A stretch of 64,000 bases of DNA from Methanolinea sp. GTDB taxonomy: Archaea; Halobacteriota; Methanomicrobia; Methanomicrobiales; Methanospirillaceae. The DNA lies in the NCBI GenBank assembly GCA_030055515.1, contig JASFYI010000001.1:62001-126000 (forward strand), written 5' to 3'. Shown here one piece after another: positions 18,691-63,408 of this stretch. Position numbers and translations under genes: made by a program. The notes under the pieces were generated by a model that did not search any database, was not told where the DNA came from, and was given only the letters and a program-made list of their open reading frames with translations. Each line of letters begins with the position of its first letter. Within the stretch, counting starts at the first letter, position 1.

Positions 18691-19000
18691 GTACAGGATG
18701 GTTGGCCCCGATCAGAAATACGTTTTCTCTTCCCGACGGACCGGAAAAATCCGCCGGAAGGAGTATTGCCGGGCATTTGGGGGGATCCAGCGGTCCTGCG
18801 CGGCAGGACCGCACGGGTCGCCTCTCCGGCGAGACGAGTATCGGGGGGAATTCCCCAAAATCGCCGGGAAAATGCACCCAACGGGCAGCATAATTATTAT
18901 ACGTGAACAATTCATGATTAACAATGAGGACTACTCTCCGAAAGACCGTTTCCCGTCTCGCAGGAGGTTGACAGGAGAGGACGAGCCCGAGGAGAAGGAC
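18691..19000. promoter_or_regulatory. Divergent control region glyA / coiled-coil-smc operon, with two palindromes
   Basis: Between the glyA start and the preferred start at 19001 I see four elements. A leftward A/T-rich box for glyA lies at 18716-18726. A perfect 10-bp inverted repeat with a 3-nt centre (GCGGTCCTGC/GCAGGACCGC) spans 18790-18812. A 12-bp palindrome GGGGAATTCCCC lies at 18845-18856. A strong TATA-like box TAATTATTATAC lies at 18891-18902 for the smc side. Initiation about 25 bases after the last box falls near 18920-18928. No protein-coding frame is convincing here. Confidence 0.55.
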
Positions 19001-48495: not shown

Positions 48496-48536
48496 TTTCC
48501 CCGCGCAGATGGGATTTCTGCGCGGGCGGGGAAAAA
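48496..48536 (+). terminator. Hairpin downstream of tRNA-Val
   Basis: CCGCGCAG (48501-48508) and CTGCGCGG (48518-48525) form a perfect 8-bp stem with a 9-nt loop. Outer TTTTCC / GGAAAA segments extend the pairing. With the preceding T-tracts it likely marks the end of the tRNA transcript. The rest of the 217-bp gap to 48685 has only a TATA-like AAATTAAAGA at 48641-48650. Confidence 0.45.
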
Positions 48537-56734: not shown

Positions 56735-57844
56735 TCATCCGTTCCTTTCCGAATCCTCGTCACTCCCGGGGGCGGGCACGACGTGGACGGCGTTTGCCTT
56801 GAAAGAGACGGAAACGACCTTTCCCGCGGAGAGTCCGAGCTCGCTGCAGGACTGGCGCGTGACGAGGGCAGCGATAGGGATCCCGGCGTCCAGTGCCAGT
56901 CTCGCGTTGGGACCGCACGCGACGACGCGGGTGATCGTGGCCGGGAGGACGTTCCGCGCGCTGCTCCGCCCTCCGTCCGCCCCCGTCGAGACAGTGACAT
57001 CTGCCGCGCGCAGGAAGAGGTGCACGCGTGTCCCCGGCGGAAATTCGCAGGGTGCGTGGACGTGGACGCCCGAGACGTCGATCCTCGCGAGTCCCCCCTC
57101 GTTCCCCACCACCACCCCCGCGAAGATATTCTCTATCCCGACCATGCGGGCCACCTCCCGGGATCCCGGCCGCGAGAAGACCTGGAAGGGATCCCCTAGC
57201 TCGCGCATCTTCCTCCCGAGGACGACGCCCACGCGCGTCGCGAGCCTCTGTCCCTGTGCCATGTCGTGGGTGGAGAAGATGACAGTCGTGTTCTCCTCGC
57301 GGTTGAGGGTAGAGATCAGGTCCTCGATCTCCTCGGTCGCGACGGGGTCGAGGTTGGCGGTCGGCTCGTCGAGGAGGAGGAGCCGCGGCCGCGGCGCGAT
57401 TGCCCGCGCGATGGCCACGCGCTGGAGTTCTCCCCCCGAGAGCGAGGCCGCACTCGCCCTCTCCAGGCCACGGAGCCCCACGAGCGCGAGGACTTCCGAG
57501 ACCCTCCGGGAGATCTCGGCCGGGGGGTAACCCCTGAATTTCAGGCCGAGCGCGACGTTCTCGTGCACGCTCCCCCGCAGGACGGAGGGTTTCTGGAAGA
57601 CCATCCCCATCTGGCGGCGGAGGAAGACGCGTTCCTGCTCGGGGACCCGCGTGTCCCTGCCCATGAACGTGATCCTCCCCGCGGTGGGATCCTCGAGCAT
57701 CGCGATCAACCGCAGGATGGTCGTCTTCCCCGTCCCGCTCGGGCCGATGAGCGCGAAGATCTCCCCCTCGTCCACGCCGAACGAGATGCCGTCCAGCACC
57801 TCCCTCTCGCCGTACCTCTTCGAGACGTTCTCGAACGCGATCAT
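56735..57844 (-). CDS. tupC: Tungstate ABC transporter, ATP-binding protein
   Basis: The 369-residue ATPase has Walker A GPSGTGKTT at residues 34-42, the Q-loop VFQKPSVLRGSV, signature LSGGELQR near 136, and Walker B LLLLDEPTANLD near 155. The H-loop is FSTHDMAQGQ. Residues about 245-350 form a C-terminal TOBE/MOP-like regulatory domain (VGNEGGLARIDVSGVHVHAP; LPATITRVVACGPNARLALDAGIPIAALVTRQSCSELGL), typical of oxyanion transporters. Overlaps tupB by 4 bases. Confidence 0.92.
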   Translation of the reverse strand: MIAFENVSKRYGEREVLDGISFGVDEGEIFALIGPSGTGKTTILRLIAMLEDPTAGRITFMGRDTRVPEQERVFLRRQMGMVFQKPSVLRGSVHENVALGLKFRGYPPAEISRRVSEVLALVGLRGLERASAASLSGGELQRVAIARAIAPRPRLLLLDEPTANLDPVATEEIEDLISTLNREENTTVIFSTHDMAQGQRLATRVGVVLGRKMRELGDPFQVFSRPGSREVARMVGIENIFAGVVVGNEGGLARIDVSGVHVHAPCEFPPGTRVHLFLRAADVTVSTGADGGRSSARNVLPATITRVVACGPNARLALDAGIPIAALVTRQSCSELGLSAGKVVSVSFKANAVHVVPAPGSDEDSERNG

Positions 57845-58533
57845 CCTTTCCGCTCCTGGAAGAAGGAGAGGGCGAGCGTCACGGCCAGGGAGATCCAAAG
57901 GAGGATGATGCCGAGCGCGATGGAGAGCGCGATGTTCCCGGCCGAGGTCTCGAGCGCGATTGCCGTCGTGAGGACGCGGGTGTACCCGCGGATGTTCCCG
58001 CCGATGATCATGGCAACCCCCACCTCCGAGATCGCGCGCCCGAATCCGAGGATGACTCCGCCGACGATCGCGTACCGGGCCTCCCCGAGGAGCGTCATGG
58101 TCGCCTGGAGTCTCGTTGCCCCCATCGCGCGGATCTCGTCCGAAAGGGACCTTTTCACCCCGGAGAGCGCGAGGACCGTCATCCCGAGGAGGACGGGGAC
58201 GATGAGGATCGCCTGGCCCACCACCATGCCCGCGGGTGTGAACAGGAGGCCGAGGAACCCGAAAGGCCCCGACCGGGAGAGGAGCAGGAAGACGAACAGG
58301 CCGACCACGACCGTCGGGAGGGCGTAGAGCGCCTGGATCACCGTCACGATGCCGCGCTTCCCCCGGAACTCCGAGAAGTGCAGGAGCCCGCCGGCGGGGA
58401 CCGCGACGAGGGCCGCGATGGCGGTCGCCGCGAGGGATATCCCGAGCGACCGCCCCGTGATCTCGACGATCTCCGGGTCGAGGGTGACGATCAGGCGGAA
58501 TGCCTCGGTGCACCCCTCGAGTATCTCGTTCAT
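57841..58533 (-). CDS. tupB: Tungstate ABC transporter, permease
   Basis: The 230-residue permease has about five to six transmembrane helices. The ABC inner-membrane signature is seen in MGATRLQATMTLLGEARYAIVGGVILGFGRAISEVGVAMIIGGNI (EAA loop). AVPAGGLLHFSEFRGKRGIV and YALPTVVVGLFVFLLLSRSGPFG are characteristic of TupB/WtpB-type permeases. It forms the channel for tungstate uptake. Lies 24 bases after tupA and overlaps tupC by 4 bases. Confidence 0.92.
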   Translation of the reverse strand: MNEILEGCTEAFRLIVTLDPEIVEITGRSLGISLAATAIAALVAVPAGGLLHFSEFRGKRGIVTVIQALYALPTVVVGLFVFLLLSRSGPFGFLGLLFTPAGMVVGQAILIVPVLLGMTVLALSGVKRSLSDEIRAMGATRLQATMTLLGEARYAIVGGVILGFGRAISEVGVAMIIGGNIRGYTRVLTTAIALETSAGNIALSIALGIILLWISLAVTLALSFFQERKG

Positions 58534-58557
58534 GGGTGTCTCCCATTCAGGCGGCCC

Positions 58558-59532
58558 TCACGCGGGGCGCGGCGGCGTGCCCGGCGGGGATGCAGGCCCC
58601 GCGCAATCGCACCCAAGTTCCCCGCACCTGTCTCCCACGAGGGAAAAAAGGTTCGTCCCGTACTCTTCCAGCCCGTATTCCCCGATCTTTTCCTGGATCT
58701 CCGGGGAGAGGAGGAAATGTGCAAATTCCTCTGCCATCCTCTGCCTCTCCGGCGACCCGTTCCTCGGGGTGACCGTGATGACGCTGTACACGTTGGCCGG
58801 GATGTCCGCCCCCTCCACGAGCGGGACGAGGTTTCCCCTCCCGCGGAACACGAGGAACGTGGCCGTGTCCGAGAGGGTGTACGCCCCCTTCTCCGCCGCG
58901 AGCTGGAGGGTCTCTCCCATCCCCCTCCCGGTCTCCACGTACCACGGCCCCGATCTTCGTATTTCGTTCGTGTAGTTATATCCTGCAGATTCCCAGATGG
59001 ATTTTTCCACGGTGTGGGTCCCGGACCCGTCCCCCCGCGAGACGAATGTGACGCCCGGACGGCCTGCCATGCCCGCCGCCGCGATCCTCCTGAAGGCCTC
59101 GGTCGCACCCGCGCCGCGGATGCCTGCCGGGTCTCCCACGGGTCCGGCAATGACAAACCGGTTATACGCGAAGCAGCGGCGGGAGGTCCCGTGGCCCGCC
59201 GCGATGAATGCCCTCTCCTCCTCCGGGGAGTGCACGATGATCACGTCGCAGTCACCCCTCCTCGCGAGCTCGAATGCCTTTCCCGTCCCCTGCGAGGTGA
59301 CGAGGAGGTCGATCCCGTGCCGCTCCTCGAAGAGGGGTTCGAGGACGTCAAGGAGGCCGGAGTCGTACATGCTCGTGGTCGTGGCGAGGACGAGCCGAGG
59401 GGAGCCGTGGGACGGTTGCGCAGGCCCCCGGTCCACGGCAACGCACCCGCCGAGGAGCAGGAAGGCGAAGAGGGACGCGAACGCGAGCGCGTGGAGGGCG
59501 TGGCACCCGTCCCCGGGAGGCGAAATGTCCAT
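58558..59532 (-). CDS. tupA: Tungstate ABC transporter, substrate-binding lipoprotein
   Basis: The 324-residue protein has a lipoprotein signal (FASLFAFLLLGGC, Cys near residue 30). The mature part begins RLVLATTTSMYDSGLLDVLEPLFEERHGI, the TupA signature TTTSxYDTGLLD. VTSQGTGKAFELARRGDCDVIIVHSPEEE and SRGDGSGTHTVEKSIWESAG follow. Start 59532 (MDISPPGDG) is preferred over 59565, because the longer start lies inside the operator and before the predicted transcript start. Methanogens need tungsten for formylmethanofuran and formate dehydrogenases. Confidence 0.93.
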   Translation of the reverse strand: MDISPPGDGCHALHALAFASLFAFLLLGGCVAVDRGPAQPSHGSPRLVLATTTSMYDSGLLDVLEPLFEERHGIDLLVTSQGTGKAFELARRGDCDVIIVHSPEEERAFIAAGHGTSRRCFAYNRFVIAGPVGDPAGIRGAGATEAFRRIAAAGMAGRPGVTFVSRGDGSGTHTVEKSIWESAGYNYTNEIRRSGPWYVETGRGMGETLQLAAEKGAYTLSDTATFLVFRGRGNLVPLVEGADIPANVYSVITVTPRNGSPERQRMAEEFAHFLLSPEIQEKIGEYGLEEYGTNLFSLVGDRCGELGCDCAGPASPPGTPPRPA

Positions 59533-59564
59533 GGCACGTACTGCGGCGACCGGGGAGATAATCA

Positions 59565-59592
59565 TTTCCCATTTACAATGGGAAATTTTTAA
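59565..59592 (-). promoter_or_regulatory. tupABC promoter and palindromic operator
   Basis: TTTCCCATT-TAC-AATGGGAAA at 59565-59585 is a perfect 9-bp inverted repeat with a 3-nt centre. Read leftwards, a TATA-like TTAAAAATT (59583-59591) abuts it, so the palindrome lies between the TATA box and the predicted start near 59560. A repressor bound here would block initiation. By context it should sense tungstate or molybdate. Confidence 0.7.
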
Positions 59593-59650
59593 CCGGTTAT
59601 TCTTAACACCGGGCGGGTGCCGGCCGGTGCGCTGCCGGAATTTCCGCGGG

Positions 59651-60205
59651 TCAGGAGACCCGTTGCCTCCTCCACAGCACGATGGAGATCCCCGCGGTCA
59701 GGCCGAGGAACACGGAGGGACCAAAGCCAGGGATGTTTCTCGCGGGGGGTTTCCGGAAAGTGAGCTCCGTGGAACAGACCGCGATGCTGTCGGTGTCCGT
59801 GAGCCGCTCGAGATTCAGGGGAACGTTCACGACGTAAATCCGGTACGTCCCGGGGACGAGGTTGCCGGCGATGAAAGACGTGTCCCAGTCGTAGATGAAC
59901 GATCCGTCCGGGTTGACGAACGCAGAAGTGAAGTATCCTTGGCCCGCCTTGAGATTCACGTTCTCGAGCGTGACGCCGGCCCTGTCGAGGCCGGGTCCCG
60001 TCACGAAGAGGAAGACGGCGAGCAGGTTCTTCCCGTCGGTCGTCCCGTTGATGTGGATGCGATCGCCGATGTGCGCGTCGCGGGGAGTGGCATCGATGGA
60101 TATACCGGCGGTTCCCGCACCCGTGAGGAGAGCGAGGACGAGGAGCGAGAGGATCACCCAGCGGGCCATGCGTTTTCGTAAATATGGGAGGGATGGAGTC
60201 ATCAT
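59651..60205 (-). CDS. Secreted surface protein with PGF-CTERM sorting signal
   Basis: The 184-residue protein has an N-terminal signal segment (KRMARWVILSLLVLALLTGAG). An all-beta domain follows (ISIDATPRDAHIGDRIHINGTTDG; GYFTSAFVNPDGSFIYDWDTSFIAGNLVPGTYRIYVV), as in Methanomicrobiales surface proteins. The C-terminus is PGFGPSVFLGLTAGISIVLWRRQR, matching the archaeal PGF-CTERM motif (PGFG, hydrophobic helix, Arg cluster). Archaeosortase A is known to process such tails, so the protein is likely lipid-anchored. Start could also be 60169 or 60256. Two N-glycosylation-type NGT sites lie in the beta domain. Confidence 0.75.
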   Translation of the reverse strand: MMTPSLPYLRKRMARWVILSLLVLALLTGAGTAGISIDATPRDAHIGDRIHINGTTDGKNLLAVFLFVTGPGLDRAGVTLENVNLKAGQGYFTSAFVNPDGSFIYDWDTSFIAGNLVPGTYRIYVVNVPLNLERLTDTDSIAVCSTELTFRKPPARNIPGFGPSVFLGLTAGISIVLWRRQRVS

Positions 60206-60305
60206 GGTTCTGGTGCCGCCACGCGCCCGTTCCCGGGGAGGTGTGGAAGCGGGCACCCTCTCTCCCCGCGGCCGGAAGCGCGCGCCTCTCCACGGCGTCG
60301 CCGCT

Positions 60306-61610
60306 TCAGAATTCGACGACCATGACCGCCTCTTCCTCCTCCCGGAGTTCCCCCTTGAGGTGTCCCGCGTCGAACCGGTACTGTTCCGAGGGATTGTAGT
60401 CCTCGTAGAGCTCGCACTTGTCGAGGACGTCGATGAACTCCTTGAGGAATATCCGGGGGATCACGTCGACCCTCCCGCCGAACTTCTCGGTCACCCGCGA
60501 GATCATCGCGCGGATGAAGCGGTGCGACACCCTGCTCCGGTCCACGTCCGAGTACGCCTCCCCGTAGATCTCCATCACCTTCAGGGCGACCTGCTCGAGT
60601 TTCCTCGCGTCGAACTTCGCGAGCGCGATCTGGGGCTGGCGCGGGTTCCTGAATCCTTCCTCGGGCTTGACGATGCATATCCTGTCGTAGAGGGGAGGAA
60701 GCGTCCTTATTCCCCTCGGGCCGTCGAAGAACGCGGGCGTGCCCGTGAAGAGGAAGTACGCGTGCGAGAGGTCTCCCCTGTCGAGCGACTCGACGATGGC
60801 CTGGAGCACGTGGTAACTCTTCTCCCGCTGGTTGCGGGGGAGGGACTGCGTCGTCTCGAGCTCGTCGAGGGCGACGGCAAGGCCCTTGTATCCCGCGCTC
60901 ACGATGATCCTCACGAGTCCGCGGAGGAACGTGAATGCAGACGCCTCGTCGATCTCCCCCCGGATCCCGGCCTTCTGCTTGAAGTCCCGGCCCACGTTCG
61001 TCTCCGCGCAGATCCACCCGATCGCGGACTGGGCGGTCTGGAAATCCCCCTCGTTGCCCGCGCGGTAGTACGTGCGGAGCGCGGCGGCAAGCGAGCTGTT
61101 CAGCTCGGATATCCCGGCAAGGGCGGTCTCTATCTCGGCGAGCGTGGCCTTCTCGAGGACATCCTCGGGGATGGTCCTATCGCTCACCCTGAGGATCCTC
61201 TCCTCTATTCCAAAGAGCCACGTGTCGACGATGGACTTGAGCGCGTGCTCTTCCTCGCGGGTCCGGAGGGTTCCGCATATCTGGCGGTAAACCTCCCGGA
61301 ACTTGTGGAGGGGGCAGGTGGGTGAGACCACGACGTGCGCCGTCACGAAGCCCATCTCCCGCGCGATCTCGAGCGACCGGGCGACGAGGAACGTCTTGCC
61401 GCTCCCGTACTCGCCCCTGACGAACTTGAGGTCGCCCCCGCCCTGCGAGACGTAGTCCAGCTGCGCCCTGATCGTGTTCTCCTCCATCTCGAGCCCGACG
61501 GCGATCCGCTCGAGGCCGCTCCCGGGGACAGTCCCCCTCCGCAGGGCATTGATGATGTTCTGGCTCTCGAGCTTCCGGCTCCCCGCCACTTCAGGCACCC
61601 TTGTAGGCAT
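60306..61610 (-). CDS. BrxD-like (DUF2791) P-loop ATPase
   Basis: The 434-residue ATPase resembles the BREX ATP-binding protein BrxD/DUF2791. N-terminal RKLESQNIINALRRGTVPGSGLERIAVG, Walker A GEYGSGKT at residues 66-73, Walker B GLAVALDELETTQ near residue 240, and YFLFTGTPAFFD (sensor-like). The C-terminal part is winged-helix-like (GGRVDVIPRIFLKEFIDVLDKCELYEDY). No other BREX gene (PglX, PglZ, BrxC, BrxL) is visible. The start at 61610 lies inside the TPR gene end (20-bp overlap), so the two products probably work together. Confidence 0.78.
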   Translation of the reverse strand: MPTRVPEVAGSRKLESQNIINALRRGTVPGSGLERIAVGLEMEENTIRAQLDYVSQGGGDLKFVRGEYGSGKTFLVARSLEIAREMGFVTAHVVVSPTCPLHKFREVYRQICGTLRTREEEHALKSIVDTWLFGIEERILRVSDRTIPEDVLEKATLAEIETALAGISELNSSLAAALRTYYRAGNEGDFQTAQSAIGWICAETNVGRDFKQKAGIRGEIDEASAFTFLRGLVRIIVSAGYKGLAVALDELETTQSLPRNQREKSYHVLQAIVESLDRGDLSHAYFLFTGTPAFFDGPRGIRTLPPLYDRICIVKPEEGFRNPRQPQIALAKFDARKLEQVALKVMEIYGEAYSDVDRSRVSHRFIRAMISRVTEKFGGRVDVIPRIFLKEFIDVLDKCELYEDYNPSEQYRFDAGHLKGELREEEEAVMVVEF

Positions 61611-63408
61611 ATATCTCCCCGTTCTTTCCAAATCCTCTCTTCTCTATCAGTACGACCCCTTTACTTGACATTTTCTGCACGAGCCGGTTGACCATCCCCG
61701 CGACCCTCCGCGAGCCGAGCAGTGCCCGCAGCTCCATCTCGCTCGCCTGCCCGCGGTCCCTGAGGAACTCGATTATTTTCCTCTCGTTCTCGTCGAGGTC
61801 AAGCCCCGCGAGGAGGGCATCGGGGGACTCGGCGGGAACGTGCCCGCCCTGCAGCGTGCCCTTCAGGACAGGGACCTCGGAGAGGGCCTTCTCCTTGCAT
61901 TCCGAAAGGAGGGCGAGGAAATCTCCCGGCCTCACATCCCTTGCCCACGCGGGGACGACGTCCAACCCTGACAGGCATGCCCTCTTGCACGACAGCCAGT
62001 CCCGCTGCGCGAGCGCGAGCGTCCCGGAGAGCAGGTGGAGCGCCGCGAGGAGTTCCAGCCCCCTCGAGGGGAGAACCTCGGAGAATCCATCAAGCTTTGT
62101 CCTGAGAGCCTCTAGCAGCCTCGGCATCCGGAGGAGGGCCTCCCTCTGCCCGAGCGAGAACTCCGCGATTCGCACGAGATCCTGAACCTTCCTCGCGGAA
62201 GAAACGACGTGCATCATGACCTTCTCGGCCTCCCTCACGTCGCCGCCCGCCGCGCAGAACCGGGCGTAGTGCGGGCCCCCCTCGAGGGAATCGCTCCTGT
62301 ACGCCCTGTAGTACCATGCCCGCGCCTCCTTCAGGTCCCCCGCCTCCTCGTAGAACTGCGCGACCGAAAGGAGCGAGAACGGGTCAGTCCTCATCGCGAG
62401 CGCCTCGCGCAGGATGCGCTCGGCATCCCCGTGCGGGAAGTACGTCTGCAGGAATACCCTGAATGCGCGGAGGATCTCCCTCGCGAGGGCGGGATCTTCC
62501 ATCGAGTCGAGTTCCTGCTCGAGGAGGCTCCTGTAGCAATCCCGGGCCTCTTCCCGCCGCTGCGCGAGAGCGAGGAGCCCGCACCCGGTGAGGCGGAACC
62601 TCCCTTCAGGCATTCTTTCCGAGAGCAGGGGGCCGAGCGCGGAGAGAGCCCTCCCGTAATCCCCGCCCTCTTTCAGGAAGAGAACGTAATCGTGCCGTAG
62701 ATCCCTGTCTCCCGTCAGCTCCACGAGCCGGGGGTACTCCTCGCCCGCCCTCTCCCTGTCGACGCGCGCGAGCGCTCCCATGGAGAGCCTCGCGTAGAGG
62801 GGATCGCGGGTCTTCTCGAACAGGTCGCGCGCGCACTCCGCGGCCTCCCTGAACTTCCCGCACGCGGAGAGGATGGAGACGTACACGTCGTCGGGAGGGA
62901 GCCTGCCCCCCGGGGCACCCTCCCACGCCACGAGTGCCTCGGCCGGCCTCCCGGCGAGGAAGAGGGCCACCGAGAGCTGGCGCGCGTCGTCCGGCCTATG
63001 GGACTGCGAGAGGAGGTGCGAGTAGGCCGGGATTGCCTTCCATGGATCGCCTGACCGGAGGACGTACGCCGCGAAGTTCCGCAGGGCATCGGTGTTCCCA
63101 GGGTCGAGCGCGACTGCCCGCGCGTACTCGGCGAGTGCGCCCTCTTCCCCCCTCGCCTCGAGGATGCGCCCGAGGTAGCCGTGCACGTGCGATGCACCGG
63201 GGAGGATGTGGGCGAGGTCGCGGAAGTGCGCCTCTGCCTCCTCGAGCCTCCCGAGATGAAAGAGGTTGGCGGCGAGGAGGACCGCGACCGAGGGGTCGCC
63301 CCGGCCCTCCCCTAGCTCCCTGCAGACCGCGAGAGACCGCTCGTACTCGCCGCGCTCAAAGAGGGTGAACGCCTCCTCCCTGCGGGTTTCCCGGTCCTCC
63401 GCGGTCAA
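61591..63408 (-). CDS. TPR-repeat protein with C-terminal winged-helix domain
   Basis: The 605-residue protein starts with TTG at 63408, overlapping the GT2 stop as TTGA. Tandem TPR-like helix pairs fill residues 1-520 (EEAFTLFERGEYERSLAVCRELG; AANLFHLGRLEEAEAHFRDLA; YLGRILEARGEEGALAEYARAVALDPGNTDALRN; AQFYEEAGDLKEARAWYYRAY). The last 70 residues (ENERKIIEFLRDRGQASEMELRALLGSRRVAGMVNRLVQKMSSKGVVLIEKRGFGK) form a MarR/TrmB-like winged helix. A frame running on to the window edge is antisense-like to GT2 and is rejected. It likely scaffolds or targets the downstream ATPase. Confidence 0.82.
   Translation of the reverse strand: MTAEDRETRREEAFTLFERGEYERSLAVCRELGEGRGDPSVAVLLAANLFHLGRLEEAEAHFRDLAHILPGASHVHGYLGRILEARGEEGALAEYARAVALDPGNTDALRNFAAYVLRSGDPWKAIPAYSHLLSQSHRPDDARQLSVALFLAGRPAEALVAWEGAPGGRLPPDDVYVSILSACGKFREAAECARDLFEKTRDPLYARLSMGALARVDRERAGEEYPRLVELTGDRDLRHDYVLFLKEGGDYGRALSALGPLLSERMPEGRFRLTGCGLLALAQRREEARDCYRSLLEQELDSMEDPALAREILRAFRVFLQTYFPHGDAERILREALAMRTDPFSLLSVAQFYEEAGDLKEARAWYYRAYRSDSLEGGPHYARFCAAGGDVREAEKVMMHVVSSARKVQDLVRIAEFSLGQREALLRMPRLLEALRTKLDGFSEVLPSRGLELLAALHLLSGTLALAQRDWLSCKRACLSGLDVVPAWARDVRPGDFLALLSECKEKALSEVPVLKGTLQGGHVPAESPDALLAGLDLDENERKIIEFLRDRGQASEMELRALLGSRRVAGMVNRLVQKMSSKGVVLIEKRGFGKNGEIYAYKGA

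Follow-up and report, generated by a model that had tools for sequence, protein, structure and literature searches.

Is the perfect palindrome in the core promoter of the putative tungstate-uptake operon tupABC an operator, and would it serve this operon alone or a wider regulon? We addressed this question in the window, meaning the whole 64-kb stretch of DNA analyzed here, in the source genome (1.757 Mb, 5 contigs, 99.1% complete), and in genomes of the same order, family, and genus. The locus contains the following features, in window coordinates.

59564 to 59586, no strand: perfect inverted repeat, operator candidate (sequence and repeat scan)
59583 to 59592, minus strand: TATA-like stretch TTAAAAATTT of the tupA promoter (sequence; putative function)
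59590 to 59599, no strand: another perfect palindrome, a short one, TAACCGGTTA, immediately upstream of the TATA-like stretch (sequence)
58558 to 59532, minus strand: tupA from its alignment-supported start codon (alignment with relatives, profile and structure matches)
57841 to 58533, minus strand: tupB-like permease gene (profile match)
56735 to 57844, minus strand: tupC-like ATPase gene with a TOBE domain at 56780 to 56965 (profile and domain match)

A sequence check showed that positions 59565–59585 form a 21-mer, TTTCCCATTTACAATGGGAAA, that is palindromic with zero mismatches. The outer pair A59564/T59586 matches as well, and the perfect inverted repeat, ATTTCCCATT-TAC-AATGGGAAAT, with 10-bp arms and a 3-nt center, therefore spans 59564–59586. 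The initial annotation, which described a perfect 21-bp operator at 59565–59592, was right about the repeat, 2 bp of length aside, but its end at 59592 took in the TATA-like stretch. The palindrome has a GC content of 0.30, compared to 0.42 for 59540–59610 and 0.64 for the window, and is thus AT-richer than its surroundings, as had been proposed. It lies between tupA and the TATA-like stretch, which shares 4 bp with its outer end.

The TupA-like open frame covers 58558–59565, with its first in-frame ATG at 59565. Among its relatives of solved structure are 5my5 (E 2.6e-54) and 3lr1 (E 1.4e-48), a tungstate-binding protein, and it scored 160.7 bits against NCBIfam model NF041772, under the cut-off of 400. 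The promoters of the nearest relatives, G085 and G125 (first tupA copy), give a gap-free alignment between the palindrome and a common CCATG. This alignment favors 59532 over 59565 as the tupA start codon, 32 nt from the end of the palindrome. Archaeal TATA boxes lie at a usual distance from the start of transcription, and this spacing, applied to the TATA-like stretch, would put the start of the tupABC transcript at ~59562, just past the palindrome. The position of the palindrome between the TATA-like stretch and this likely start agrees with the "geometry of repression" suggested earlier and would suit steric repression of tupABC, with the start site itself a prediction from spacing. Upstream of tupA, on the minus strand, are genes for a 201-aa protein (59651–60256) that partially matches a model for S-layer glycoproteins (54.8 bits against a cut-off of 600), for a BrxD-like ATPase (60306–61631; NF033438, 407 bits, cut-off 350) that also precedes tupA in L007, and for an adjoining repeat-rich protein (61591 onward).

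Our preferred explanation, tentative and at a little under an even chance, is that the palindrome serves the tupABC core promoter as an operator that is specific to this species and has a single target. We infer that a dimeric helix-turn-helix protein, neither ModE nor the tup-linked protein described below, would bind both 10-bp arms, that the bound protein would keep RNA polymerase off by sitting between the TATA box and the start site, and that the signal would probably be tungstate sufficiency; this operator would serve one target and no regulon. No candidate protein binding the palindrome was found. About equally likely, although placed second, is that the palindrome is neutral, having arisen by chance or been perfected by one template switch (quasi-palindrome correction) in a promoter that had lost its ancestral control.

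Two kinds of evidence bear on both of these explanations. The first is chance expectation. Perfect inverted repeats with 10-bp arms and a gap of 0–10 occurred three times in the whole window and 3, 3, 3, 1, 3, 1, 3, and 0 times in eight dinucleotide shuffles of it, as expected for a neutral repeat. The two others, at 18790–18812 and 48500–48526, are both GC-rich. Within the local 121 bp, by contrast, only 30 of 20,000 shuffles reached a 10-bp arm, a figure that stands before correction for the number of promoters that could have been chosen. The repeat is unremarkable for a 64-kb window and notable for the tupA promoter. Given the many promoters open to selection, its local rarity is modest evidence for an operator and against neutrality. 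Its exact placement also argues against neutrality, since genes for metal uptake, whose core promoter it occupies here, are usually regulated.

The second is conservation. TupA was found in 103 of 120 genomes of the order, 64 of 71 of the family, and 12 of 13 of the genus, and the palindrome was absent from every tupA promoter of a relative that we read, which counts against an operator and is expected of a neutral repeat. The site is alignable in the nearest relatives, where the arms pair at 5 of 10 positions in G085 and 4 of 10 in the first copy of G125. Compared to G085, the left arm is identical at 9 of 10 positions and the right arm at 6 of 10, a pattern resembling a right arm copied from the left one; the corresponding values for G125 are 6 of 10 and 7 of 10. 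From these alignments, the repeat would have been either perfected in the source lineage or decayed in both relatives. Perfection in the source lineage, while the flanking promoter remained alignable, would favor an operator.

An RNA role is improbable, whether the repeat were to form a hairpin within leader or read-through RNA or to serve as a terminator. Minus-strand RNA from 59555–59600 is predicted to fold at −12 kcal/mol (z −2.8), but every DNA palindrome folds as RNA, and transcription directed by the TATA-like stretch, if it is in use, would begin downstream of the repeat. Moreover, 59000–60500 contained no terminator-like sites (a GC-rich stem followed by a T run), and 57000–62000 gave no Rfam match.

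The initial annotation also suggested that the palindrome marks a tungstate- or molybdate-responsive regulon that includes tungsten enzymes, and it proposed a genome-wide search for the motif. At up to 3 mismatches in 18 positions, we found no second copy in the source genome, and the motif occurred only at tupABC, one of the outcomes that the initial annotation had named as counting against its proposal; not all of the moa/moe genes were located. This single copy, which a neutral repeat would also give, leaves no sign of the site at a regulator's own promoter. Allowing 3 mismatches in 16 positions gave six other sites, compared to two for a reversed-pattern control; by reading, their contexts were within or between unrelated genes and shared no theme. 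The sole site near a molybdenum or tungsten gene is a weak one (L093:1501–1519, 3 of 16 mismatches) that precedes a gene read as moaB-like by ~0.47 kb, and we judge it to be a chance match. The genome has fwd-like genes, identified by reading, on which the assignment of the organism as a methanogen is based, and in three stretches around molybdopterin oxidoreductase matches (fwd/fdh) the best sites had 5–7 mismatches; single shuffles reached 6–7, and these best sites look like chance. Across the order, sites with up to 2 mismatches occurred in 8 of 120 genomes, including the source genome, compared to four genomes for the reversed control, and the contexts that we read appear unrelated. Exact copies in an 84,980-species collection, from which the window's own and near records may be omitted, comprised 10 stretches, all bacterial by title.

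For the regulator, the initial annotation suggested a tungstate- or molybdate-responsive repressor and proposed gel shifts with ModE-like proteins, but the ModE profile TIGR00637 matched in none of the 13 genus genomes and the only TOBE domain found in the source genome is that of TupC; for these reasons, a ModE- or TOBE-type sensor in the source genome is unlikely. Thus, despite the palindrome at the tup promoter and the weak site near the moaB-like gene, a tungstate/molybdate regulon extending to tungsten enzymes is very improbable.

The relatives' tupA promoters carry a different element. At many family tupA promoters, CANNTG hexamers occur in series, as in CACCTGGTATATTCAGTTGATGATGCAACTGATTAA, with a spacing of 10–14 bp (L070–L077, L079, L082–L087, L066), and some forms of the array are perfect 10–11-bp inverted repeats (L107, L110, L012). 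With up to 3 mismatches, the family array pattern matched 23 sites in 22 of 71 family genomes, compared to two matches for the reversed control, and 16 of the 23 sites, including all 12 with up to 2 mismatches, are directly upstream of tupA. At least two chained CANNTG hexamers were present in 37 of 47 family tupA upstream regions, whereas the source genome, G085, and the first copy of G125 had none and G077 had one. The family pattern was unmatched anywhere in the source genome at up to 3 mismatches. One further match (L088:1501–1523 in G155, 3 mismatches) lies 0.18 kb upstream of a gene that reads as a metal-chelate-type substrate-binding protein, possibly another metal uptake system sharing tup-type control. 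Because the source tupA promoter is without the usual family element, another control would be needed there, if there is any, a point in favor of the operator.

Directly upstream of tupA, two genera have an open frame of ~115 codons (e.g. L019:880–1221, plus strand, with relatives in L010, L016, L020, L022, and L118–L137); where the gene is tup-linked, it either precedes tupA or follows tupC. Relatives of the ~115-aa protein were found in 57 of 71 family genomes by sequence search and in 75 of 120 order genomes with a 29-row profile, and single-sequence and profile searches both found it absent from the source genome. Both the protein and tupA are present in 72 order genomes, on one contig in 63 and within 8 kb in 51; in nine the two genes are on different contigs, and in 12 they are >8 kb apart, four of these >400 kb. 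Using only strong matches in the family set, 51 genomes have both, 35 on the same contig and 29 within 6 kb. The protein contains the strongly conserved block PTTRRLAEFLxVPHYYVLPYFAMMExExLVTRAERVGI and has no match in Pfam or NCBIfam. Its predicted fold (pLDDT 92.5) is a winged helix by the order of helices and strands, and the best structural matches are DtxR, IdeR, and MntR (best Foldseek E 2.0e-3). The match to the DtxR group reached a VIA Z of 7.9 over 77 residues with an rmsd of 2.6; because values of Z<8 may reflect only a common arrangement, we do not claim membership of the DtxR/MntR group. The tup linkage and predicted fold make this protein a good candidate tungstate regulator in the relatives.

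We compiled the presence of array and protein by hand for 44 genomes, counting genomes with two copies (G121 and G125) once by the better copy and dropping G126, where the protein was not searched. Both were present in 34 genomes, the protein alone in three (G085, G130, and G132), the array alone in one (G148, 65% complete), and neither in six (G000, G077, G101, G123, G064, and G139). From these counts, array and protein appear mostly to co-occur, and above chance, although the association is weaker than its Fisher p of 7.8e-5 looks. The genomes are related, and four of the six with neither belong to one genus. G101, scored as having no array, matches the family pattern at 1 mismatch, and G123 has a PWM score of 33.4. 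G085 and one G125 copy have no array though the protein is encoded. That the palindrome is a degenerate or rearranged site of this winged-helix protein is very unlikely: its CCATT/AATGG half-sites resemble family sites such as CCATTTG-N8-CAAATGG (L012), but the array PWM scored at best −11.9 in the source tupA promoter, compared to 25.9–51.8 at family sites, the promoter is without any CANNTG, and the source genome is without the protein.

Returning to the single-target operator, a broader scenario, which we regard as rather unlikely, is a regulatory swap. The methanogens of the order would regulate tungstate uptake through the undescribed ~115-aa DtxR-like protein together with a phased CANNTG array at tupA, the source species and a few relatives would have lost this pair, and a small number of base changes or a single template switch would have created in the core promoter a new operator, bound by an unrelated regulator. 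If this were true, the protein that was lost would represent a novel type of tungstate regulator in archaea, one that has no TOBE domain; the literature covered, mostly without subscription papers, named no tungstate regulator for archaea that are without ModE. The palindrome alone would have little importance beyond one operon. The better lead is the array and the tup-linked protein, which constitute a concrete, testable pair in the relatives, mostly co-occurring there and both missing in the source species.

Compared to known systems, the palindrome shares with the family CANNTG array its position upstream of tupA and, for some forms of the array, the form of a perfect 10–11-bp inverted repeat, but the array differs from it in sequence and spacing and has no match in the source genome. 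According to one account, modABC of Methanosarcinales is controlled by ModE and Methanococcales are without ModE (PMC9765008). As for ModE in E. coli and Methanosarcinales, the target here would be the promoter of a metal-oxyanion uptake operon. The source lineage differs in that the 13 genus genomes are without a ModE profile match and the source genome is without a TOBE protein besides TupC. TunR of sulfate-reducing bacteria, with which the likeness would be tungstate control of tupABC, carries TOBE-type domains, whereas the source genome has none outside TupC. Operators of the NrpR type in archaea sit between the TATA box and the start, and the NrpR site is GGAA-N6-TTCC. The palindrome is not of this sequence, is single copy, and is without a known binding protein, but it resembles these operators in being an inverted repeat in the core promoter, a placement suited to blocking polymerase.
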